From assembly GCA_026390445.1 (NCBI GenBank), contig JAPLFX010000204.1:1-36978 (forward strand): a stretch of DNA of 36,978 bases. Direction: 5' to 3'. The notes beneath the pieces were generated by a model. The model had not been told where the DNA came from. It did not search any database and worked only from the letters and a program-made list of their open reading frames with translations. How positions within the stretch are numbered: position 1 is the first letter of the stretch; every line of letters starts with the position of its first letter. Positions 4,191 to 26,236 of this stretch are shown one piece after another. The stretch is from Pseudomonadota bacterium. GTDB lineage: Bacteria > Bdellovibrionota_B > Oligoflexia > Oligoflexales > CAIYRB01. The translations under genes and the position numbers were made by a program.

Positions 4191-4775
4191 TCAATGCGCC
4201 ATCAGCGTGCCAGCGCGTCTAATGATCACGACAGCCTTGCCCGGCCCACCTTTATCGCGCAGGATCTTACCGATCTCTGCCGTGACCTGATCATTGGCAT
4301 CACCCAGGCGGCCCTCGCCTTTGACCTTGGCGTCGTCGGTATTAAACAGCCGACCCATCCAGCTGACACTTTCCGCCATAGTGTAGGTCTCGAAGGACGA
4401 CACACCTAGATTGATCAACAGGTCTTTGACCGCTGCGACCCGTTCATCGGCCAGGCGTCGTTCGGAGGTGCTCAGCTGCTGGCCTTTGTTGCCCGGAAAA
4501 TCCTTATCGGACCACGCGCCCACAACCGCCGAAGAGATGGTGGCATCTGCCCTAACCGCAGAAACCATTGCTGCCAGATTACGCCGCTCCTCCTCGCTGA
4601 TATTGGCCCTTCCAGACTCAAACGACACCGTCGCGGTGTCCTTGCCAAAGAGTTCATACACCTTGGTCCGTACGTCTTGAACGGCAGCGGACATGGAGGG
4701 CTCGGCCATGGCAGGACCCGGAGTCCATGAGCCGAAGCTCGCAGCTACGAACAGTAAATAAGTTGACAATTTCAT
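4191..4775 (-). CDS. Periplasmic OmpA-like protein (divergent)
   Basis: 194 residues with a cleavable signal peptide ending AMA-EP (about residue 24). The mature part resembles an OmpA C-terminal peptidoglycan-binding fold: FESGRANISEEE matches the start of the domain, a GAWSDKD segment stands where the usual G-H-T-D is, and LSTSERRLADERVAAVKDLL matches the long helix. The terminal NRRV signature is absent, so peptidoglycan binding is uncertain. GGAGGT lies eight bases before the ATG. It is the last gene of a three-gene minus-strand set behind DUF1328 and CsbD, 27 bases downstream of the latter, which suggests a role in envelope stress; that is inference from context. Confidence 0.65.
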   Translation of the reverse strand: MKLSTYLLFVAASFGSWTPGPAMAEPSMSAAVQDVRTKVYELFGKDTATVSFESGRANISEEERRNLAAMVSAVRADATISSAVVGAWSDKDFPGNKGQQLSTSERRLADERVAAVKDLLINLGVSSFETYTMAESVSWMGRLFNTDDAKVKGEGRLGDANDQVTAEIGKILRDKGGPGKAVVIIRRAGTLMAH

Positions 4776-4802: not shown

Positions 4803-5012
4803 TCAATTTTTGAGTTTCACATTCGCGATAAACTTATCCAGCTCCGCCTCAGCGGCTTCCTTTTTATGGCCGTAGCGAGTCTGTATTTTGCCGAGCAGTC
4901 GGTCCTTTTTACCAGCGATAACCGTCAAGTCATCGTCGGTGATCTTACCCCATTTCTCACGAACCAATCCTTTAACTTCTTTCCACTGCCCTTCAATTTG
5001 TTCCCAATTCAT
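4803..5012 (-). CDS. CsbD family stress-response protein
   Basis: Small (69 residues), highly charged helical protein beginning MNWEQIEGQWKEVKG, the hallmark of the CsbD/YjbJ family, followed by a Lys/Asp-rich region. Family members are abundant general-stress proteins of unclear biochemical role. The start at 5012 is chosen because GGAGGG lies just upstream and the family begins with this Met; an upstream in-frame start at 5045 would add residues not typical of the family. It sits between DUF1328 and the OmpA-like gene in one probable operon. CsbD and DUF1328 proteins are often found together in stress-induced gene sets. Confidence 0.9.
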   Translation of the reverse strand: MNWEQIEGQWKEVKGLVREKWGKITDDDLTVIAGKKDRLLGKIQTRYGHKKEAAEAELDKFIANVKLKN

Positions 5013-5065: not shown

Positions 5066-5239
5066 TTAAATCGGCCGCTTGCCGCGCAAAGCATTAGCTA
5101 AAACCGACACGATCAAGGCGACCAGGAACACGGCAAAGAGAACTTGAGCTATCCACGCTGAAGCCCCAGCGATCCCGCCAAAGCCAAACACGCCAGCCAC
5201 GATGGCGAGCACAAGAAACACCATTGCGTAATAAAGCAT
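5066..5239 (-). CDS. DUF1328 (YtjA-like) small membrane protein
   Basis: 57 residues, [22 protein letters not shown] followed by a second hydrophobic stretch and a basic tail (LRGKRPI). Two transmembrane helices and the FGFGGIAG turn are typical of DUF1328. The function of the family is unknown; it is usually an inner-membrane protein next to stress genes. The start at 5239 has GGAGGATAAC upstream; the in-frame start at 5254 would overlap that ribosome site. It is the first gene of the DUF1328-CsbD-OmpA-like set. Confidence 0.9.
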
Positions 5240-5431
5240 GTTGTTATCCTCCAAGATGATGCATGCGGCACGGTCGACACCGTTGCAAATCCTTAAGCAA
5301 GCTTCGTGCCAGATACGATGCGCGGCTTAGAGTTCGGCAATCGTTGGGTATCGACGCGGCCGTCGCTTGCTGAGCGCTGTCGCAGATAAGCTACAGTCGG
5401 TCGAGCAGTTGTGTGAAAGTTGAGAATGGTC

Positions 5432-6151: not shown

Positions 6152-8079
6152 TGGTTGTGTCGAACGATGTTAAAATGTCCCTGCCGCGTTGGATGCCATG
6201 GTCCCTAGGGTGCCTACTGTCCCTTGTGTCCTTGCTACCCGTTTTCTGTCTTGCATCGTTGCCGTTTACGGCCATGGCGGATACGGCGATGCCGATCGAC
6301 TTTCGCAGGGAGACGATCTACTTCGTTTTGACCGCCCGATTTGCCGACGGGGATCCAAGCAACAACTTCTACAACCGCGACCGCATCAAGCTGGGTGATC
6401 CGCAGTGGCGCGGCGACTTCAAGGGACTCATGGACCACCTTGACTACATCAAGGACCTAGGCTTTACGGCGATCTGGATCTCGCCGCCGGTGGAAAACCG
6501 TAGTGGCCTTGACTACCACGGCTATCATGCCTATGACTGGACGCGCGTCGATCCTCGTTTAGAATCTCCCGGTGCGACCTACCAAGATTTGATTGATGCG
6601 GCGCATGCCAACGGTCTCAAGGTGATTCAAGACGTTGTCATCAACCACTCCAGCAACTACGGCATCCGCAATCAAGTGTGGATTGACCGCCTCCCGCACA
6701 AGTATTTCCGACCAGCCCACGCTGCCTTCACTGCACCTTACGCGCTGAATCTTGGCAATTACCTGGCCCCCTACCACGAGGATAACGACAACCCGGTGGC
6801 TCCAGCTTGGTTTCGCGAGCGCCAGCACCAGGACGACGCGGGTGACGTGCCATTCATCGATCCAACCTCGGGTCTAAGTTTGGCTCAATTTAAGCAGAAT
6901 CCAAACCGCTTCTTCAACACCGATGTCGCGCATCTACCGACCCAGTGGTACCACCCTGACGGCTATATGGCCGGCGGTGATTGGGAAAACCCGAACAGTC
7001 TCCAGCGCAAACACCTGAGTGGCGACTGCATGGACCTTGCCACCGAACGACCCATCGTTAAGGCCTATCTTAACTCTGCAATCCTTAGCTACCTCAACAT
7101 GGGTGTTGATGCCATCCGCCTTGACACCGCCAAGCACGTCGAGCGCGACGAACTCCTCACCTACGTGCACACCTGGCAAGAGCACCGCCCAGGATTGTTT
7201 GTCTTTGCTGAGGTCATGGTCAAGGGCTTGGGCTACGGTGATCTAGAGGGTAACGACAACGGCCCGTCTGCTATCCGTCCGTGGTGGTATACTCGCAACG
7301 GTCATGACGCAAAGGACCCGCATTCCGGCGGCGATTCGGGACTTTCGGTGATTGATTTCGCCCTTTTTTCGACCTTTCGCGACAACCTGACCAAAGGCAA
7401 TTTTGACGGCTTAGGCGGCGTCTTTGCCCATGACTGGATCTACGGCGATGCAACTAAGCTGGTGACGTTCTTTCAAAATCACGATGTCGGCCCCGACAAT
7501 GATTTCAAATATCGCTTCGGTGGCGAATCCTGGCGTGCCGCAGTGGCGTACAACCTGCTTTGGACCGCTCGCGGTATTCCAGCGCTTTACTACGGCGAAG
7601 AGATCGAATTCATGAAAGGAGCACCGCAGGATATCGCCGGCGAGCATGACACCCTGGATCAAACCGGACGCGCCTATTTTGGTGAGCACCTCACACCTGA
7701 AGGGCAGCGTGCGAGTAGGATGCACCCGATGTATCGCCATATCCAACGCCTAAACCTCATCCGTCAACGCATCCCGGCGTTGCAGACAGGGGCGATGAGT
7801 CAGGTCCATGAGTTTGGCTCGGGCATCTCTTACGTACGCGAAGATGCGGGCAGTGACAGCTATGTGGTCGTCGGTTTAGCGGCTGACAGGCGTAGCGGAT
7901 TTACCGTTGCGCCGGTACGCAACGGGACCTACGTCGACGCCGTGTCCGGATGTAGCCGAACGGTCCACGATGGTCGCCTGGTCTTTGGCGTTAAAGCTCA
8001 TTCGGCAGGGATTTGGGTGCTAGGTGGTACGAGTAAGATCGGGGACGATGGGGCTTTTTTACAGAGCGACGGCTGCTGA
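6151..8079 (+). CDS. Secreted alpha-amylase, GH13 family
   Basis: 642 residues. A signal peptide of about 43 residues ends TAMA-D, so the enzyme is exported. The catalytic (beta/alpha)8 domain shows all conserved GH13 regions: DVVINH (161-166), GVDAIRLDTAKH with nucleophile Asp325, FAEV with acid/base Glu354, and FQNHD with transition-state Asp445. The C-terminal ~90 residues look like the usual beta-sandwich. It hydrolyses internal alpha-1,4 bonds of starch, glycogen or maltodextrin outside the cytoplasm. The first ATG is chosen because GAGG precedes it; an internal ATG at 6175 also leaves a signal peptide. No other starch gene is nearby. Translation or transcription may be controlled by the hairpin over its start; a LysR remnant follows directly. 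Confidence 0.95.
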   Translation: MVVSNDVKMSLPRWMPWSLGCLLSLVSLLPVFCLASLPFTAMADTAMPIDFRRETIYFVLTARFADGDPSNNFYNRDRIKLGDPQWRGDFKGLMDHLDYIKDLGFTAIWISPPVENRSGLDYHGYHAYDWTRVDPRLESPGATYQDLIDAAHANGLKVIQDVVINHSSNYGIRNQVWIDRLPHKYFRPAHAAFTAPYALNLGNYLAPYHEDNDNPVAPAWFRERQHQDDAGDVPFIDPTSGLSLAQFKQNPNRFFNTDVAHLPTQWYHPDGYMAGGDWENPNSLQRKHLSGDCMDLATERPIVKAYLNSAILSYLNMGVDAIRLDTAKHVERDELLTYVHTWQEHRPGLFVFAEVMVKGLGYGDLEGNDNGPSAIRPWWYTRNGHDAKDPHSGGDSGLSVIDFALFSTFRDNLTKGNFDGLGGVFAHDWIYGDATKLVTFFQNHDVGPDNDFKYRFGGESWRAAVAYNLLWTARGIPALYYGEEIEFMKGAPQDIAGEHDTLDQTGRAYFGEHLTPEGQRASRMHPMYRHIQRLNLIRQRIPALQTGAMSQVHEFGSGISYVREDAGSDSYVVVGLAADRRSGFTVAPVRNGTYVDAVSGCSRTVHDGRLVFGVKAHSAGIWVLGGTSKIGDDGAFLQSDGC

Positions 8080-19384: not shown

Positions 19385-20377
19385 ATGCCCAAGATCAAAG
19401 ACCTTCTTCGTGAACTAGCGACGCATCCATCTCCCACCGCGACTTCCGAACAGTCCTACCAAGGCTTGACCAAGGACCAGATCAGCGCCTTGGCTAGCCG
19501 CGGCTGCTCGACTTATACCGGCAAAGTGCGCGATGTCGTCGCCGTCGGCGACGAACTATTGATCGTTCATTCCGACCGCTTGACCGCCTTCGACAAACTG
19601 ATCGGCATGGTCCCATACAAGGGAACCATCCTCACGGCGATCTCTGAATTTTGGTTGGAAGAAGCCAAAAAGGTGGTCCCCACCCACCTGCTGAGCCGCC
19701 CGCATGAGCGCGTGCTGCGGACGCAAAAAGCCGTGCCGTTTAAGGTCGAAGTGATCGTTCGCGGCTACTTGGCTGGCAGCATGCTCCGGGCCTACACGGC
19801 TGGCGAGCGGCTGTTTTGCGGCGAAAAGCTGCCCGAAGGCCTCAAAGCCCACGACCGCCTACCGCGGCCGATCATCACGCCAACGACCAAGGCCGCCGCC
19901 TTTGAACACGACGAAAACACCTCACCAGCCGAGCTCATCGCCGCTGGCGTCGTCACCCAGGCCGAATGGAGCGACATCAGCCACTTGGCGCTGCGGCTTT
20001 TTGCCCATGGCCAGCAGGTCTTTGCCCGTGTTGGCTGGTTGCTCGTCGATACCAAATATGAGTTTGGGCGGACGAAAGATGGAACGATTACGGTGATCGA
20101 TGAGATTCACACTCCAGACTCCAGCCGCCTTTGGACCGCCGCGACTTATGCAGCCCGGGTTGCCAGCGGGGAAGGGCCTGAGATGCTGGATAAAGAGATC
20201 GTCCGGCGCTATTTGCTCGCCCAAGGATTTAAGGGCGAAGGGCCGGTGCCAGTCGTACCGGCAAAGACCTTGGTGGAGCTAGCTGAGGTCTACCTGCGCG
20301 TGGCTGAAACCCTCACCGGTCGCCCACTGACCAGTGAGGCCGGTAGTCAAGAGATTCCGATTCTGGATTTATGCTAA
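19385..20377 (+). CDS. purC: SAICAR synthase (phosphoribosylaminoimidazole-succinocarboxamide synthase)
   Basis: 330 residues. Purine biosynthesis: joins CAIR and aspartate with ATP to give SAICAR. Motifs: YTGKVRDVVAVGDELLIVHSDRLTAFD (nucleotide site), RGYLAGSMLRAY, TPTTKAA and LVDTKYEFG, then VIDEIHTPDSSRLW. The length is that of the ~300-residue type rather than the ~240-residue enzyme of enterobacteria. I choose ATG 19385 because AGGA lies seven bases upstream; an in-frame ATG at 19343 would add a non-conserved 14 residues. Its stop overlaps the stop of the convergent receiver gene by four bases. Confidence 0.93.
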   Translation: MPKIKDLLRELATHPSPTATSEQSYQGLTKDQISALASRGCSTYTGKVRDVVAVGDELLIVHSDRLTAFDKLIGMVPYKGTILTAISEFWLEEAKKVVPTHLLSRPHERVLRTQKAVPFKVEVIVRGYLAGSMLRAYTAGERLFCGEKLPEGLKAHDRLPRPIITPTTKAAAFEHDENTSPAELIAAGVVTQAEWSDISHLALRLFAHGQQVFARVGWLLVDTKYEFGRTKDGTITVIDEIHTPDSSRLWTAATYAARVASGEGPEMLDKEIVRRYLLAQGFKGEGPVPVVPAKTLVELAEVYLRVAETLTGRPLTSEAGSQEIPILDLC

Positions 20378-20772
20378 CAGACGCCGCTGATCAGTCGACT
20401 GATGTGGTCGATCAGCCCAGCCCAATCGCCGTCCTTGGCCATAAATCCATCAAAACCCTGCGCCATCCCCGTGGCCTGGATGCTCGGCTCCGAGTGCCCG
20501 GTCAAGGCCAGCACCAGGCCACGATAGCCATCCTGGCGCAGCATAGCCACTCCAGCCAAGCCACCGATGTCAGGCATCTCTAAGTCCATCAAGACGGCAT
20601 CGTAGCTTTGCTGCCGCGTCAATTCCATGCCGGCGAGCACCCCGGATGCGGTGTCCACCTGGGCGCCCTCATGCTGCAGGACGCGAGCATAGATCACGCT
20701 GATATCCGGCGAATCGTCGACGACCAAGATGCGTTTACCGACCAAACACTGGCCACGACTAAGTTGACTCAT
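20374..20772 (-). CDS. CheY-like single-domain response regulator
   Basis: 132 residues, receiver domain only. All active-site residues are present: Asp19/Asp20 (VVDDS), phospho-acceptor Asp63 (VLMDLEMP), Thr91 (ALTGH) and Lys113 (MAKDG). It can therefore accept phosphate but has no output domain and must act by protein contact or within a phosphorelay. GAGGAG precedes the ATG. It ends against purC with overlapping stops and is divergent from the NtrC-type activator, with a long inverted repeat between them. Confidence 0.9.
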   Translation of the reverse strand: MSQLSRGQCLVGKRILVVDDSPDISVIYARVLQHEGAQVDTASGVLAGMELTRQQSYDAVLMDLEMPDIGGLAGVAMLRQDGYRGLVLALTGHSEPSIQATGMAQGFDGFMAKDGDWAGLIDHISRLISGVC

Positions 20773-20839
20773 GGCGGAAGCTCCTCATAGCACTAACCCA
20801 AAGGCAGCAAAATCTGCAGGATACATGCCAAATGGGGCT

Positions 20840-20952
20840 TTGCTGCATAAACCCTGCCCTCTTGCCTTCCCGTCCTCCCAGTTTTGGGGCAGCGGCTTTT
20901 TTCCGCGCAACTGGGAGGACGGGAAGGCAAGAGGGCAGGATTTATGCAACAA
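20840..20952. repeat. 113-bp near-perfect inverted repeat
   Basis: Left arm 20840-20883 and right arm 20909-20952: 44 base pairs with two mismatches (20843/20949 and 20852/20940). The 25-base loop can itself form a small stem (GCGG 20892-20895 with CCGC 20903-20906 around a T-rich loop). It lies in the 380-base gap between two divergently transcribed genes, so it is not a terminator for either. Possibilities: a miniature mobile element, a structured RNA, or a large operator. I see no second copy in the window. The small ORFs read on both strands here come from the repeat. The rest of the 20773-21152 gap shows nothing recognisable. Confidence 0.9.
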
Positions 20953-21152
20953 GTCCACCAAATGGTAGCACCATGACGCCATATCAAGCGCACCGAGGCA
21001 CCTAAACCTAAGGCCCTGGGTATCGCCTTTTGCCTAGAGTTCGTCAAATAACTTCGCAAGCTACCGATTTTTGCCGACATCGCCGCCCGACACGGTTAGG
21101 ATGCGGCACATAGATTTTGCTCCGGTCCGTTAGAAAAAAGGCTTTTGACGCT

Positions 21153-22538
21153 ATGGCGGGAAGTAAATACCTAGGCCGCATTCTTTTAGTCGATGACGAC
21201 GAGTCGATTACGCGCTTTTACGAGACTTTTCTGACAGCTGCGGGATTCATCGCCCATTCTTGCCACGATTTGAAAACCGCTAAAGATCTCCTGACTCAAT
21301 ACTACTTCGATGCGGTCCTGCTCGATCTGCATTTAGGCGACGAAGAGGGCATTGGTGGCCTGCCATTCGTGCTTAAAGTCACGCCCTCGACAAAGGTGTT
21401 CATCCTCACCTCGCATGGTTCGATTGAGAAGGCCGTCGAGTGCATGCGCCGCGGTGCGACGAGCTTCTTCACCAAAGGCACGGAGCCCGAAAAAATCCTT
21501 GCCGAGATCACCGCGCACTTAAAGCCCGCAGCGAAAGGCCCGCTTCTCGATCCCGAGACGCGCAAAACCATCGGCCTGGTTGGCGACAGCCCAGCGATCA
21601 AAGAGATGCTGGCGATGATCGATAAGATCCGCAATGTCGACTCGACAGTCTTGATCTTGGGCGAATCCGGGACAGGTAAAGAGGTCGTTGCGCGCGCCAT
21701 TCACCAGACCTCACCGCGCGCCGCGGAACCATTCAATGCGATCAACTGTGGCGCCATTCCCGAGCAGCTCTTAGAGTCCGAGCTGTTTGGCCACAAACGC
21801 GGCAGCTTTACCGATGCCAAGACCGACCGCAAAGGGATTTTTGAAGTCTGCACCAACGGCACCCTGTTGCTCGATGAGATCGGTGATATGCCGCTGGCCC
21901 TGCAGACTAAACTGCTGCGCGTACTCCAGGAGCGGCAGGTCACGCCGATCGGCTCGAGCATGCCGCTCACGATCAACACTCGAGTCATCGCCGCGACCCA
22001 CCGCGATATCCTCGACGAAGCAAAAAGTAAGCGCTTTCGCGAAGATCTCTATTATCGCCTGTCGGTGGTCGTCATCCGAATCCCGCCGCTGCGCCACCGC
22101 ACCGAGGATATCCCGGCTCTGACCACCCACTTCCTGCGCCAGTTCAATCAGCGCTTTGCCAAGAATGTGCGTCCGCCGAGTGCTTCGGTGATGGCGCGGA
22201 TGATGGCCTACGACTGGCCTGGGAACGTTCGTGAGCTACAAAATGCCTTGGAGCGAGCGGTCGTGCTGTCGAATGACGATGAGCTAAGCGTCAGCGACAT
22301 CTTCCAGCACCTGAATCTGCGCGCAGGTACGGCTACATCGGACGAAACGATCAGTCGCGCCGTGTTCGCGATGCCGCTCACGGAGGCCAAGCAGTGCTTC
22401 GAAAAGAGCTATCTCGAACACCTGCTCACCATTAGTGGCGGCAATATCTCCGAGGCCGCGCGGATCTCCGGGCGCTACCGTGCCGATATCTACCGCCTTA
22501 TGCATCGCTATGGCTTTGATAAAGGGAGCTTTCGGTGA
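21153..22538 (+). CDS. NtrC-type sigma-54-dependent response regulator
   Basis: 461 residues. Receiver domain (1-125) with acidic DDD near 14-16, phospho-Asp58, Thr86 and Lys108. The AAA+ domain has Walker A GESGTGKE (170-177), the sigma-54 contact loop as GSFTDA (217-222, instead of GAFTGA), Walker B LLLDE (238-242) and RFREDLYYRL with the arginine finger. A Fis-type HTH follows (GGNISEAARISGRYRADIYR). When phosphorylated it should open sigma-54 promoters from an upstream site. I choose ATG 21153; an upstream TTG at 21117 lacks a good ribosome site. Its stop overlaps the start of the HPt-like gene. Likely targets are the two sigma-54 promoters at 23223 and 24826 (inference from proximity). 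Confidence 0.93.
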   Translation: MAGSKYLGRILLVDDDESITRFYETFLTAAGFIAHSCHDLKTAKDLLTQYYFDAVLLDLHLGDEEGIGGLPFVLKVTPSTKVFILTSHGSIEKAVECMRRGATSFFTKGTEPEKILAEITAHLKPAAKGPLLDPETRKTIGLVGDSPAIKEMLAMIDKIRNVDSTVLILGESGTGKEVVARAIHQTSPRAAEPFNAINCGAIPEQLLESELFGHKRGSFTDAKTDRKGIFEVCTNGTLLLDEIGDMPLALQTKLLRVLQERQVTPIGSSMPLTINTRVIAATHRDILDEAKSKRFREDLYYRLSVVVIRIPPLRHRTEDIPALTTHFLRQFNQRFAKNVRPPSASVMARMMAYDWPGNVRELQNALERAVVLSNDDELSVSDIFQHLNLRAGTATSDETISRAVFAMPLTEAKQCFEKSYLEHLLTISGGNISEAARISGRYRADIYRLMHRYGFDKGSFR

Positions 22539-22846
22539 GCGGGGGAGCTGACTCGCTGGAGACGACAAGATCCAGGTATGCCTCACATGACCTGCTGGGG
22601 CCGCTCGTCGAGTCCTACATCCAAGGTTTACCGACGGCGTTGGGAGCCTTGGAACAAGCCGTACGGGCCGGCGAAGATCGCCAAATCTTGCGCCTGAGCC
22701 ACCGACTTAGCGGCGATGCGGCAACCTATGGCTTTGCTGCTTTGGCTGACTTGGCGCGCGAGGTGGAGCTGGCCAAGCCGCAGGATCGCGGCGACGCCAT
22801 GCGCCAGCTCAAGGACCTCAGCCGCAGGATTTGTCGCTCTCTGTAA
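22535..22846 (+). CDS. HPt-like protein lacking the conserved lysine
   Basis: 103 residues, all helical. LSHRLSGDAATYGF matches the HPt phosphotransfer motif (H-x-L-K-G-x-A-x-x-x-G), with His56 present but Ser59 in place of the conserved Lys. The Lys is important but not strictly required in all HPt proteins, so it may be active, weak or purely a binding partner. The GTG start overlaps the stop of the NtrC-type gene (GTGA), so the two are co-translated and probably work together. A canonical HPt is encoded nearby at 24207-24545. Confidence 0.75.
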   Translation: MSGGADSLETTRSRYASHDLLGPLVESYIQGLPTALGALEQAVRAGEDRQILRLSHRLSGDAATYGFAALADLAREVELAKPQDRGDAMRQLKDLSRRICRSL

Positions 22847-22990
22847 CCATCGCCGCGTTCCCTGCAGCAACCTCTGCATCTGCACCCACAGGATGGCACA
22901 AAGGAACGCAGCGACAGCTGCAGCGACGCTATAGCTGAGCCCTGTTACGACTCCTAAACCAAAGTCATGCCACACTGAGATTTCTTGCAT
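22628..22990 (-). CDS. Possible small membrane protein, antisense overlap with HPt-like gene
   Basis: About 120 residues. The N-terminal part lies outside the HPt gene and looks protein-like: MQEISVWHDFGLGVVTGLSY, a hydrophobic helix (AAAVAAFLCAILWV) and a basic segment (QRLLQGTRRWLQR). AGGAG stands eight bases before the ATG at 22990 (two more in-frame ATG codons directly precede it). The C-terminal 70 residues are antisense to the HPt-like gene, which is unusual for a real gene and lowers confidence. Confidence 0.35.
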   Translation of the reverse strand: MQEISVWHDFGLGVVTGLSYSVAAAVAAFLCAILWVQMQRLLQGTRRWLQRATNPAAEVLELAHGVAAILRLGQLHLARQVSQSSKAIGCRIAAKSVAQAQDLAIFAGPYGLFQGSQRRR

Positions 22991-23149
22991 CATCATGTCT
23001 CCTGCAGCAAAACAAACTGATACGGTCGCTGCTGCGTGGTTGATTTGGTGCGCCCACTAGATTGTGAGACTATGAGAAGCTTCTGCAATTCTTATGCCCG
23101 GCTCATATAGTCGTTTTTGGGTTGCTGCAGTGGACTTTAAACACGACAC

Positions 23150-23169
23150 CTGTAGCGCGCTCACTACAG
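23150..23169 (+). promoter_or_regulatory. Shared palindrome, candidate activator-binding site
   Basis: CTGTAG-N8-CTACAG with perfect six-base arms, about 65 bases upstream of the sigma-54 -24 box at 23223. The same arms and spacing recur at 24724-24743 before the second sigma-54 promoter; nine consecutive left-side bases (CCTGTAGCG) are identical in both. Confidence 0.55.
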
Positions 23170-23176
23170 TTTCTTT

Positions 23177-23194
23177 TTCGGCCGAACGGCCGAA
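23177..23194 (+). promoter_or_regulatory. 18-bp palindrome upstream of sigma-54 promoter
   Basis: TTCGGCCG-AA-CGGCCGAA, perfect eight-base arms, centred about 38 bases before the -24 box. It may be an operator or a second activator site. It is not found at the other sigma-54 promoter in the window. Confidence 0.45.
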
Positions 23195-23222
23195 TCACGA
23201 CCAGCTGGTTCGCCCAGGATCT

Positions 23223-23238
23223 TGGAACGATTCTTGCT
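23223..23238 (+). promoter_or_regulatory. Sigma-54 promoter (-24/-12)
   Basis: TGGAAC-GATTC-TTGCT; the invariant GG and GC are exactly ten bases apart. It fits the consensus TGGCAC-N5-TTGC(A/T). The expected transcription start is about 23249, 34 bases before the receiver gene. The remainder of the 22847-23282 gap holds the two palindromes listed and part of the possible minus-strand gene. Confidence 0.75.
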
Positions 23239-23282
23239 GATAGGATAGTTATACATGCATCACTACAGGCAGCGAGGCCACT

Positions 23283-23741
23283 ATGAACTACTTAGCAAGC
23301 AACGCTAATGACCACTCGGCAGTCCATGCACAAGCGGCCTTAAGCTGCAAAAAGGGTGTGCTTTTGATCGATGATGATGAGTGGTTTCGCTCGCTTTTTC
23401 GCGTCATCTGCGAGGCCAAAGGAGTGCCGGTGACAACCTTTGCTTCACTTGCCGACATGCCTTCCTTTGCCTCACTGCGCGACTACGACGTCGTCATTCT
23501 CGACTACTACTTGGAGTCATTCAAAGGCTCGGAGATCGCAGAATACGTCGACGTCTTTTTTTCTCACCTGCCGGTCATCGTCATCAGCAGCTCGGACATC
23601 GCTGAACGGGAGCAGAAAGCATGGCCAACCTGCATCCGGCGTTTTATGAACAAGACCTCAGGTCCCCATGCCATCCTCGACTGCGCGCTTGGGCTCGTCA
23701 GCCAGGAGTGGCCCGTCGCCAAGGCAGCGAACCTGAATTAG
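23283..23741 (+). CDS. Single-domain receiver protein (first of tandem pair)
   Basis: 152 residues. After a ~24-residue leader comes a receiver fold: LLIDDDEW (acidic pocket 30-32), phospho-acceptor Asp74 (VILDYYLESFKG), Ser102-104 in place of the usual Thr/Ser, and Lys124 (FMNKTSGP). There is no output domain. It is clearly paralogous to the next gene: both share DY/FD-x-x-I-x-D-x-Y, G-(S/D)-E-(I/L)-AE-x-x-D, PVI and K-(T/S)-(S/A)-GP-x-x-IL. The ATG follows GAGG. It is transcribed from the sigma-54 promoter at 23223. Probable role: phosphate carrier or sink in the local phosphorelay. Confidence 0.88.
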   Translation: MNYLASNANDHSAVHAQAALSCKKGVLLIDDDEWFRSLFRVICEAKGVPVTTFASLADMPSFASLRDYDVVILDYYLESFKGSEIAEYVDVFFSHLPVIVISSSDIAEREQKAWPTCIRRFMNKTSGPHAILDCALGLVSQEWPVAKAANLN

Positions 23742-23764
23742 ACGATTCGCCGCGGGAGGTTTTG

Positions 23765-24247
23765 ATGATGAGACCACAACTGGCTCCACCGCTACGGGCA
23801 CAGGATCGATTGCTCATATTGGATGATGATCCGTATTTTGGCGCGCTTTTATCGGCAACGGAGCGGCGCTTTGGCTTCCTGCCGACCTACTATGCCTCGA
23901 TCTTCGACCTCGGGCCGTTCGCCCGCATCAAGGACTTTGATCTGGCGATCATCGATGTCTACATGGGCTGCATCCGCGGTGACGAGCTGGCGGAGTGCAT
24001 CGATATGTTCTGCTCCGAGGTCCCGGTCATCCTGGTGAGCGGTCACGATCTGCACGAAACCAACTGGGAATCACGGTGCCCGGAGTCGGTGCGCTCGTTC
24101 ATGCCCAAGTCCGCTGGACCCTTCAAAATCTTGGAAGCGGCGCGGTCGACACTCCAGCGGGAGCGCCTCCTGCGCCGTTTAGCAGCAACGACCCCAGTCT
24201 GTTCGACTAGCGACCAAGACCTATTACTGCCCGGTGACATAGCGTAA
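23765..24247 (+). CDS. Single-domain receiver protein (second of tandem pair)
   Basis: About 160 residues. Start at ATG 23765 or the adjacent ATG 23768; GGGAGG lies just upstream. Receiver residues: DDD (20-22), Asp64 (AIIDVYMGCIRG), Ser92 (LVSGHD), Lys115 (FMPKSAGP). About 40 % identical by eye to the preceding gene over the receiver, from which it is separated by only 23 bases, so a tandem duplication is likely. A C-terminal extension (RLLRRLAATTPV...) is not part of the fold. Its 3' end overlaps the convergent HPt gene by 41 bases. Confidence 0.87.
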   Translation: MMRPQLAPPLRAQDRLLILDDDPYFGALLSATERRFGFLPTYYASIFDLGPFARIKDFDLAIIDVYMGCIRGDELAECIDMFCSEVPVILVSGHDLHETNWESRCPESVRSFMPKSAGPFKILEAARSTLQRERLLRRLAATTPVCSTSDQDLLLPGDIA

Positions 24248-24545
24248 TGGCATCGGCCAGATAGCTCTCGATCACCGGCAGCTGACAACCACCCTTGATC
24301 TCCTCTTCCAGCTTTTGCGCCACTTGACCGATCTGCGGATACCCGTAGCCGCCGGCGGTGCCTTTGAGGTCGTGGCAGATCTTGGCGCTTGCCACCCAAT
24401 CGCGACGCTCCACGGAGTCGCGCAAGGTGCTGACATAGCGTGGCATGTTCTGCACAAAGGCCGGCAGGATGTCGGCGATGATCTCATCGTCGGCGAACAG
24501 AGACTTGAGCGGACTGGCTGTGAGGCCACTGAGTTCACCTTGCAC
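24207..24545 (-). CDS. HPt phosphotransfer protein
   Basis: 112 residues. Single HPt domain with the canonical motif KICHDLKGTAGGYGYP, phospho-His58 and the conserved Lys61. It would shuttle phosphate between receiver proteins and a hybrid kinase that is not in the window. GTG start with GGGAGG five bases upstream. It is transcribed towards the receiver pair and overlaps the second one at the 3' ends. Together with the HPt-like gene at 22535 it gives this locus two HPt proteins and four receiver domains without a kinase. Confidence 0.9.
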   Translation of the reverse strand: MQGELSGLTASPLKSLFADDEIIADILPAFVQNMPRYVSTLRDSVERRDWVASAKICHDLKGTAGGYGYPQIGQVAQKLEEEIKGGCQLPVIESYLADAITLCHRAVIGLGR

Positions 24546-24723
24546 CTTAACCTCCCTTTTGAACTGCCGCGACAGGAACCCGGTAAGAAGCAGCTCCTGA
24601 TACCGACGGCAGGAACCTACCTTAAGGCTAAAATTAATTCAAGCAAGGGGGCGTTGACTGATATTTATAAATATTTTCTATTTAATAAAGTGCCGCGGGG
24701 TGTCGTCTCATAAATCCATCAAC

Positions 24724-24743
24724 CTGTAGCGGATCACCTACAT
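24724..24743 (+). promoter_or_regulatory. Shared palindrome, candidate activator-binding site
   Basis: CTGTAG-N8-CTACAT, 19 of 20 palindrome positions in the same arrangement as at 23150-23169 (only the last arm base differs). It is centred about 94 bases before the -24 GG, a normal distance for an enhancer-binding protein site. Confidence 0.55.
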
Positions 24744-24825
24744 GAGAAGCAGCGCCGGGCCCTCCGACACTTCAAATCAGCCATAATCACCCATAGTTTC
24801 CGGTCATTACACAAATCAGCAAAGA

Positions 24826-24842
24826 TGGCACCGGTATTGCAT
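24826..24842 (+). promoter_or_regulatory. Sigma-54 promoter, perfect consensus
   Basis: TGGCAC-CGGTA-TTGCAT matches the sigma-54 -24/-12 consensus at every position, with correct spacing. Expected start is about 24854, 30 bases before the ATG at 24884. Confidence 0.85.
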
Positions 24843-24883: not shown

Positions 24884-26236
24884 ATGGGACTGAATTTAAA
24901 ACTGGGATCAGTAGTTGTCGCTCTTTCCGCTTACTTCCAAGGCTGCCAGCACACGCCGGTTGATTCTTACCCTGCTGATGCAAATGCCTCCGCCGAGATC
25001 AGCAAAGTTGATGCCCAGCGCAACGCCTTGCTCGCTGAGCACGCCGATGTTTTGTCACCCAAACACTTTAAGGCCGGTAGCGAGGACCTAGTCAAGGCCA
25101 CCCAGCTACGCAGCGAAAACAAGCCCGATGAAAAGGTTCTCAAGGAATTGGCGAAGGCCCGCGGCGAGTTCGATCGCGCTGCCGACTTTACCAAGATCGG
25201 TCAAGAAGCACTTCCCGGCGTCCTGCAGGCTCGTGAAGACGCCATCAAAGCCAACGCGCCAAGCGTCGTTGGCACCGACTTTCGCAAAGCCGACGAGGGT
25301 CTACGCAGCGTCAGCGCAGACATCGAGGGCAACGATAAGGCTGCGGCGCTAAAACAGCGCGGCAAGCTCGAAGGTGAGTTCCGCGCTGCGGAATTCGCCG
25401 CACTCAAACGCACCTACCTCGGCCAAGCTATGACCGCCAAGGAGCTCGCCGAAAAAGAAGGCGCCGCCACCTATGCCCGCAGCACGCTCGGCGCGTTTAA
25501 CGATAAAGCGCGCGAAAGCAGCGACTATATCAACAGCCACCGGCAAGATCTTGCCGGGCTGGATCATTTGCGCAGCGTCATGACCGGCGACGCCAGTCAC
25601 CTGTTAAAAGTCACTCGTGAATCAAAAGCCACCGGTTCAAAAAATGGTGAAGCCATCGTGCTGCAGCGCGAAGCCGAAGAACAACGCATCGCCGCTACTC
25701 AAACTGCTCTGGACCAAACCCGTACCGAGCTACAAGCGACGGCCGCTGCACTAGCCGCCACCCGCAACGAAGCTAGCAGTTTGGAAGCACAAAAGGCCTT
25801 TCAAGACCGGATCAAAGGCGTCAAATCCGGGTTTACCACCAAAGAAGCCGACGTCATGCAACAAGGCAATAACATCATCCTTCGCCTTAAAGGCCTGGAC
25901 TTTGCCTCAGGATCGGCAAACATCAAGACGCATGACTACGCTCTGCTCAATAAAGTTCGCGATGTGATCGTCGGGTTCAGTCCAGCGAGCGTCAGCATCA
26001 TCGGTCACACCGATGGCAAAGGCAAAGCCAGCTTGAATAAAAAGCTGTCGTTGGAACGGGCCGAAGCGGTCAGAACCTACCTTGAGGCGAACCTTGGTCA
26101 AGCCGGCAGTGTGAGCTTTGCCCAGATCTCTGGAATGGGCGATGAGCAACCACTGGCTTCCAATAAGACCGCCGCGGGCCGCGCGAAGAATCGTCGCGTC
26201 GATGTCACGATCACGCCAACCGGCGTCGCGCACTAA
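24884..26236 (+). CDS. OmpA-family lipoprotein with long helical stalk
   Basis: 450 residues. The ATG at 24884 follows GAGG and gives a lipoprotein signal ending AYFQGC (Cys21). Residues ~30-310 are charged, Ala/Lys/Glu-rich and helical, in part coiled coil (AEEQRIAATQTALDQTRTELQ). The C-terminal ~125 residues are an OmpA peptidoglycan-binding domain: LDFASGSANI, IIGHTDGKGKASLNKKLSLERAEAV, GMGDEQPLASN and GRAKNRRVDVTI, with the Asp and Arg that bind diaminopimelate. It tethers the outer membrane to peptidoglycan. Expression should depend on sigma-54 and an activator. It ends with stops overlapping those of the convergent epimerase gene. Confidence 0.92.
   Translation: MGLNLKLGSVVVALSAYFQGCQHTPVDSYPADANASAEISKVDAQRNALLAEHADVLSPKHFKAGSEDLVKATQLRSENKPDEKVLKELAKARGEFDRAADFTKIGQEALPGVLQAREDAIKANAPSVVGTDFRKADEGLRSVSADIEGNDKAAALKQRGKLEGEFRAAEFAALKRTYLGQAMTAKELAEKEGAATYARSTLGAFNDKARESSDYINSHRQDLAGLDHLRSVMTGDASHLLKVTRESKATGSKNGEAIVLQREAEEQRIAATQTALDQTRTELQATAAALAATRNEASSLEAQKAFQDRIKGVKSGFTTKEADVMQQGNNIILRLKGLDFASGSANIKTHDYALLNKVRDVIVGFSPASVSIIGHTDGKGKASLNKKLSLERAEAVRTYLEANLGQAGSVSFAQISGMGDEQPLASNKTAAGRAKNRRVDVTITPTGVAH

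Follow-up and report, generated by a model that had tools for sequence, protein, structure and literature searches.

Analysis of a 36,978-nucleotide stretch of DNA (contig JAPLFX010000204.1, referred to here as the window) from a bacterium of the order Oligoflexales identified an 18-base palindrome, TGTAG-N8-CTACA, which occurs exactly or with one mismatch upstream of three -24/-12 promoters. The palindromes are likely to be the upstream activating sequences (UASs) of a GlrR-like activator encoded at positions 21153-22538, which would drive sigma-54 transcription at these three promoters.

Two of the putative operator-promoter pairs are located beside the activator gene, one upstream of a pair of receiver genes and the other upstream of an OmpA-family gene:

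23150-23169, plus strand: putative UAS/operator 1, CTGTAG-CGCGCTCA-CTACAG, upstream of the receiver pair
23223-23238, plus strand: -24/-12 sigma-54 promoter of the receiver pair, TGGAAC-GATTC-TTGCT
24724-24743, plus strand: putative UAS/operator 2, CTGTAG-CGGATCAC-CTACAT, upstream of the OmpA-family gene
24826-24841, plus strand: -24/-12 sigma-54 promoter of the OmpA-family gene, TGGCAC-CGGTA-TTGCA

The letters and coordinates of the palindromes and of the -24/-12 elements were those given in the first-pass annotation, as was the C that precedes the TGTAG arm in both palindromes (23150 and 24724). The promoters carry GG and GC at the correct spacing, in the TGGCAC-N5-TTGC form. The gap from palindrome to -24 element is 54 bases for the receiver pair and 83 bases for the OmpA promoter; measured from the palindrome centre it is 63 and 92 bases, in agreement with the annotated distances of about 65 and 94. 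Relative to the expected start sites, the centres of the three putative UASs lie at approximately -88, -100 and -117. The sites did not fall consistently on the same helix face, and no IHF-like site with fewer than two mismatches to the IHF consensus was found between UAS and promoter. The stretch that separates the receiver-pair operator from its promoter holds a second, GC-rich palindrome, TTCGGCCG-AA-CGGCCGAA (23177-23194).

The third pair precedes a small operon at the other side of the activator gene:

5377-5396 (18-base core 5378-5395), minus strand: putative UAS/operator 3, CTGTAG-N8-CGACAG
5311-5296, minus strand: -24/-12 sigma-54 promoter TGGCACGAAGCTTGCT
5066-5239, minus strand: DUF1328 small membrane protein (Pfam PF07043, 2.5e-14)
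4803-5012, minus strand: CsbD-family protein (Pfam PF05532, 1.2e-17)
4191-4775, minus strand: 194-amino-acid protein with a signal-like N-terminus, which looks secreted or OmpA-like by eye only (no Pfam match)

Operator 3 has one mismatch to TGTAG-N8-CTACA and lies 66 bases upstream of TGGCACGAAGCTTGCT, the promoter serving the DUF1328, CsbD and 194-amino-acid genes, about 16 kb from the activator gene and about 18 kb from the other sigma-54 promoters. One of its arms is of the TGTA kind and the other of the TGTC kind; its counterpart in the congener G002, TGTCGCATATCTGCGACA, is a perfect palindrome with TGTCG-N8-CGACA arms, the form found for GlrR. The regulon proposed in the first-pass annotation, tandem receivers plus an OmpA-family lipoprotein, keeps both of its members; the list was incomplete, since the DUF1328-CsbD operon (5311-4191, minus strand) had been missed.

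The genome to which the window belongs (4,171,209 bases, 93% complete) was searched for the palindrome, using the reversed pattern as control. Only two exact copies were obtained, the sites at 23150 and 24724, and three of the control. Both copies sit upstream of good -24/-12 sites, which is not the scatter of common, sigma-54-unlinked copies that the first-pass annotation had named as one outcome counting against its proposal. When the 150 bases upstream of each promoter were shuffled by mononucleotide, the two regions had a palindrome with 5-bp arms in common, equal in arm and spacing (4-14), in 4 of 20,000 rounds. For the 47 strong -24/-12 matches of the genome, the 220 bases upstream contained the exact palindrome at two sites, a copy with one mismatch at one site and copies with two mismatches at three; on the downstream side, over an equal 220 bases, the best palindromes had two mismatches, at two sites. 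The wider pattern TGTMG-N8-CKACA occurred at 16 places, against 20 for its reversed control. Fifteen of these were scored for sigma-54 sites (the C258 place was left out): three, all in the window, are near a strong site and the next best score was 11.7, so that no further members of the regulon are claimed from this pattern.

When one mismatch was allowed, the palindrome was found at 49 places in the genome and the control at 114; that it is so common in this form would favour a chance likeness between two promoters. The exact palindrome is rare in its own genome, yet not enriched as a pattern, and what gives the finding its strength is that the arms are exact and that sigma-54 promoters lie close by. 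The shared palindrome is unlikely to be fortuitous: we rejected chance on the two exact genomic copies, the scan on either side of the 47 sites and the shuffles, and the palindrome is also kept in relatives and recurs at one more sigma-54 promoter, which makes such a coincidence very improbable.

The first-pass annotation had placed an NtrC-type activator 1-2 kb away. An activator is encoded there, and the label could be sharpened to GlrR-like: the best of 77 NCBIfam models was GlrR (NF011695, 402 bits, below the equivalog cut-off of 763), with lower scores for NtrC (TIGR01818, 361 bits, cut-off 558.6) and for PrsR of the PEP-CTERM system (TIGR02915, 355 bits, cut-off 502.6). The protein has a receiver and an AAA+ domain (Pfam) and a Fis-type helix-turn-helix (HTH) recognized by alignment with GlrR only, which is the receiver-AAA+-HTH architecture of GlrR/QseF; in the HTH it reads RYRADIYRL where GlrR has RNRTEFYKL. 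It is 43-44% identical to GlrR from six enteric loci, all of them with GlmY by Rfam. A quick, midpoint-rooted maximum-likelihood tree built from 105 proteins, from which the activator of G004 (internal stop) was left out, placed the window clade (SH-aLRT 98) as sister (88) to the GlrR clade (100) of these enteric loci and not inside it. Unlike GlrR/QseF, the window activator has Hpt and receiver genes as neighbours: no kinase of the GlrK/QseE kind and no QseG was seen beside it (QseG was not searched by model), and no glmY was found next to the operon, no Rfam match of any kind reaching the gathering score in the window and the six loci searched. By its sequence the protein is a GlrR-like sister branch and not GlrR itself; it was not filed as GlrR because the family cut-off was not reached, the gene neighbourhood differs and it falls outside the GlrR clade.

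The two other families share less with the window. NtrC resembles it in activator class and -24/-12 promoters, and differs in that the protein is below the TIGR01818 cut-off and no nitrogen genes were seen among the three target units. PrsR is also a sigma-54 activator and controls envelope genes, a further likeness to the role proposed for the window activator, which scores below the TIGR02915 cut-off.

The operator points to the same family. Ahead of the glmY sigma-54 promoter QseF, which is GlrR, binds with the help of IHF to UASs whose consensus is TGTN12ACA (PMC6075780, excerpt), and the GlrR UAS has been tabulated as TGTC(N)10GACA (PMC4987338, excerpt). TGTAG-N8-CTACA fits the TGT-N12-ACA geometry, and a site of this geometry is found upstream of the sigma-54 promoter at all three window sites, five of the six half-sites having A in fourth position where GlrR sites have C. 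Before GlmY in the six enteric loci there are 15 TGTN-N10-NACA sites, 12 of them TGTC-N10-GACA, with at least one per locus. The targets in the window differ from those of enterobacterial GlrR/QseF, with its GlmY and rpoE promoters; a cell-envelope theme is common to both (PMC6075780 and PMC4987338, excerpts). Very probably the window activator acts in the manner of GlrR, on an operator of GlrR shape.

The activator block was compared with those of five congeners, G001-G005. Orthologues of the activator were found in G002 (98% identity), G001 (82%) and G005 (81%); in G003 and G004 the match starts at residue 140-141, the receiver part being missing, and the G004 gene also contains an internal stop. 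G001, G002 and G005 share the order activator-Hpt-receiver-receiver-Hpt (minus strand)-OmpA-TPR gene; G003 and G004 have it too, except that the first Hpt gene is missing. At the receiver promoter the TGTAG/CTACA arms are kept, with a changed 8-base centre, in G002, G001 and G005. A sigma-54 site precedes the OmpA-family gene in all five congeners.

Two results of this comparison weigh against the assignment of the palindromes to the activator. The palindrome at the OmpA promoter is present only in G002, with none in G001, G003, G004 and G005, and G003 and G004 are without the palindrome at the receiver promoter too. This absence from promoters of both kinds is a real limit on the claim. That the OmpA-gene sigma-54 site is kept in G001, G003, G004 and G005 would also fit a reading in which some unrelated regulator, be it a repressor or an activator (such as a small HTH dimer), binds the palindromes and overlays sigma-54 control, and an 18-base dyad is a common form of operator. 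The centres of the sites, however, lie approximately 88-117 bases upstream of the expected start, a spacing typical of a sigma-54 UAS rather than of a repressor site, and no other DNA-binding regulator was found among the 23 window proteins, a part of all frames, to which Pfam was applied. We regard an unrelated regulator as very unlikely and retain the GlrR-like activator as the protein that would bind these sites.

In four of the congeners a sigma-54 promoter followed by approximately 90-150 hairpin-rich bases was observed, directly after the activator gene in G003 and G004 and after the first Hpt gene in G001 and G005 (L052 about 7390-7530, minus strand; L053 about 7740-7876, minus strand; L047 from 6934, minus strand; L048 from 3878, plus strand). 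Folding of four stretches of G001, G003 and G004 (G005 was not folded) gave z values of -3.3 to -5.4, and a matched change from a C-G to a T-A pair distinguishes G003 from G004 in the second hairpin stem. No Rfam match reached the gathering score for these stretches. They are candidates for a sigma-54-driven small RNA, placed like GlmY near GlrR. At the same place in the window no sigma-54 site scoring 13.5 was found.

The association of palindrome, sigma-54 site and activator was analyzed across the order and its class. Sigma-54 sites were scored with an ad hoc weight matrix and were sought 20-170 bases on either side of each palindrome. A genome counted as activator-bearing if it had a match at E ≤ 1e-125, which in the order holds for 18 of 43; members of the class were assigned from the activator match search. 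Of 83 exact palindromes, 75 were scored; the remaining 8 were left out and are in G043, G044, G045, G047 and G049, genomes whose best activator matches are weak. A sigma-54 site scoring at least 14 was near 9 of the 37 palindromes in activator genomes and near none of the 38 in the others (Fisher p 0.001), and near 6 of 34 against 0 of 38 when the two G002 rows and the G005 row were removed (p 0.009). Random places in the scored loci reached 14 in 1.2% of 3000 draws. The candidate regulon of the first-pass annotation gains support from this comparison, the sigma-54-near palindromes being all in activator genomes.

Several observations limit what the association can carry. The exact palindrome is not enriched, with 83 copies in the 56 genomes and 144 of the reversed control. 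The cut-off of 14 was chosen after the scores had been seen (at 12 the counts are 9 of 37 and 1 of 38, p 0.006), and the genomes are related, so that the p-values of this test and of the CsbD and DUF1328 tests below overstate independence. In activator genomes 28 of the 37 palindromes are not near a site scoring 14; the exact palindrome is near a strong sigma-54 site in 6 of the 18 (G000, G001, G002, G005, G022 and G027), and G053, with a close activator homologue, has no exact palindrome at all. Finally, 21 of 24 related sigma-54 promoters have no operator even at one mismatch, and a requirement for TGTAG-N8-CTACA at every promoter of the group was rejected on this count.

These 24 promoters were hand-picked after a survey of sigma-54 sites, one per divergent pair; the set leaves out G002 and three promoters found through the palindrome, and keeps near-duplicates (G004, G005) and G035, a genome without a close activator. 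The other three have at most one mismatch to TGTMG-N8-CKACA, where the shuffle mean was 0.38 and 2 of 500 shuffles reached three. A combined pattern (palindrome, 50-80 bases, -24/-12 element) matched in 4 of the 43 genomes, all of the same genus, and its reversed control in none; this search misses other gap lengths and adds nothing beyond the genus.

The possibility that the palindromes are UASs of another sigma-54 activator of the same genome was considered in the light of these data. Matches to the activator number at least 22 in this genome, some 16 kb lie between the DUF1328 site and the GlrR-like activator, and 12 of the 18 activator genomes are without an exact palindrome near a strong sigma-54 site. 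Against it, every scored site with a sigma-54 promoter nearby belongs to a genome that has the GlrR-like activator, two of the three window sites are within the block kept together with it in G001-G005, and the site geometry is that of GlrR, the best-scoring family of the neighbouring activator; moreover, of the five activators of this genome that the tree included (the five best of the matches listed), only the neighbouring one belongs to the group formed by GlrR and the window clade. Another activator is therefore unlikely, and the neighbouring GlrR-like protein is preferred.

Sites were also found outside the genus. G022, a more distant member of the order whose activator is 56% identical, has two non-syntenic palindromes with sigma-54 promoters, one before a PRC-barrel-like gene (by eye) and the other upstream of a coiled-coil gene, after which comes a ferritin-like gene. 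Its activator gene is followed by a 751-amino-acid gene with receiver and Hpt matches, after which TGTATGAATCTCAATACA (TGTA-N10-TACA) lies 82 bases before a sigma-54-like site; this promoter precedes a 121-amino-acid gene, receiver-like by eye only. G027 has one non-syntenic palindrome with a sigma-54 promoter, before a small gene of unknown kind. In other loci, divergent sigma-54 promoters flank a single imperfect palindrome (L289 2564-2725, L290 2018-2246 and L294 12691-12915), at 71 bases on both sides in G039.

CsbD is present in 15 of the 43 genomes of the order, 11 of which have the activator (hypergeometric p 0.003); for DUF1328, 8 of 11 genomes of the order have it (p 0.02). Sigma-54 sites were found upstream of DUF1328 and/or CsbD in G000, G001, G002, G005, G022, G027, G033, G036 and G039, and also in G040 and G035, both without a close activator. 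No sigma-54 site was found before DUF1328 in G001, G013, G031, G053 and the second G022 copy, at the second CsbD copies of G027, G033, G036 and G039, or at the CsbD genes of G006, G022, G026, G031, G040 and G041. Where DUF1328 and the activator are on the same contig, they are separated by 1.2 kb (G036), 1.6 kb (G033), 4.0 kb (G053), 9.8 kb (G002) and 14.3 kb (G001).

The genes of the activator block in the window are the following:

21153-22538, plus strand: GlrR-like sigma-54 activator (Pfam Response_reg, Sigma54_activat and AAA_lid_14; C-terminal HTH by alignment, no Pfam HTH)
22535-22846, plus strand: Hpt protein 1, GTG start overlapping the activator stop (Pfam Hpt 4.7e-12; motif SHRLSGDAATYG)
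23283-23741, plus strand: RECa, receiver-only (Pfam Response_reg 3.2e-12; receiver Asp, Ser and Lys present by eye)
23765-24247, plus strand: RECb, receiver-only (Pfam Response_reg 2e-05, 25.1 bits, below the 30.2 cut-off; phmmer match from RECa)
24207-24545, minus strand: Hpt protein 2, GTG start (Pfam Hpt 1.8e-09; motif CHDLKGTAGGYG)
24884-26236, plus strand: OmpA-family protein, probable lipoprotein (Pfam OmpA 4.4e-17; lipobox read by eye)
20374-20772, minus strand: receiver-only protein, divergent from the activator (Pfam Response_reg 7.3e-21)
20815-20830, minus strand: further sigma-54-like site TGGCATGTATCCTGCA, without operator, 42 bases before the receiver gene 20374-20772

The site TGGCATGTATCCTGCA is also present in G002. 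A longer OmpA-family frame from 24842 was rejected because its start adjoins the -12 element. The 3' ends of RECb and Hpt protein 2 overlap by 41 bases on opposite strands (24207-24247), with a similar tail-to-tail overlap in G001. An inverted repeat at 20839-20953 (42 of 45 positions paired) lies between the divergent receiver and activator genes, and a small open frame, membrane-like by eye, runs opposite Hpt protein 1 and past its end (22628-22996, minus strand), its start region being found also in G002.

No histidine kinase domain was found in the 23 window proteins scanned, and the window encodes two Hpt proteins and three lone receivers; for this reason the activator is probably fed through an Hpt phosphorelay. 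In the scheme that we infer, a kinase signal would pass to Hpt and from there to the receiver of the activator. The phosphorylated activator would bind TGT(A/C)G-N8-C(T/G)ACA as a dimer and, through DNA looping, promote open-complex formation by sigma-54 polymerase at the receiver-pair, OmpA-family and DUF1328-CsbD promoters. The OmpA-family probable lipoprotein and the products of the DUF1328-CsbD operon would then be made, as a response to envelope or osmotic stress. The induced lone receivers RECa and RECb would be likely to drain phosphate from the Hpt proteins, and probably act as phosphate sinks or as feedback.

Control of the bacterial exterior by sigma-54 is an old theme (PMC3162934, excerpt) and GlrR UASs are already known. 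The features that look new are a sister branch having a distinct operator flavour, the Hpt/receiver wiring and the CsbD and DUF1328 targets. In the literature searched no paper was found joining PRC-barrel, CsbD and RpoN, nor Oligoflexales with sigma-54; the available excerpt of PMC13101641 mentions CsbD, RpoN and an enhancer-binding protein and reports no sigma-54 control of csbD.

As a tentative extension, rather doubtful at present, the GlrR sister branch of the order might be a stress master regulator acting via a multi-step Hpt/receiver phosphorelay. It might bring genes such as those for CsbD, DUF1328, PRC-barrel, Dps-type ferritin and OmpA-family proteins under sigma-54 and might also, in part of the congeners, drive a small RNA located as GlmY is next to GlrR; the shift from TGTC to TGTA might then have come by a change in the recognition helix, mixed sites being surviving intermediates.

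For the order, these results provide a concrete and testable candidate regulon, in which a single activator would use a single operator at three promoters. Sites of the TGTC and TGTA types, together with their differing recognition helices, offer a natural pair for the study of specificity change in sigma-54 activators, and the regulon would connect two stress proteins whose mechanism is unclear, CsbD and DUF1328, with a GlrR-like regulator.

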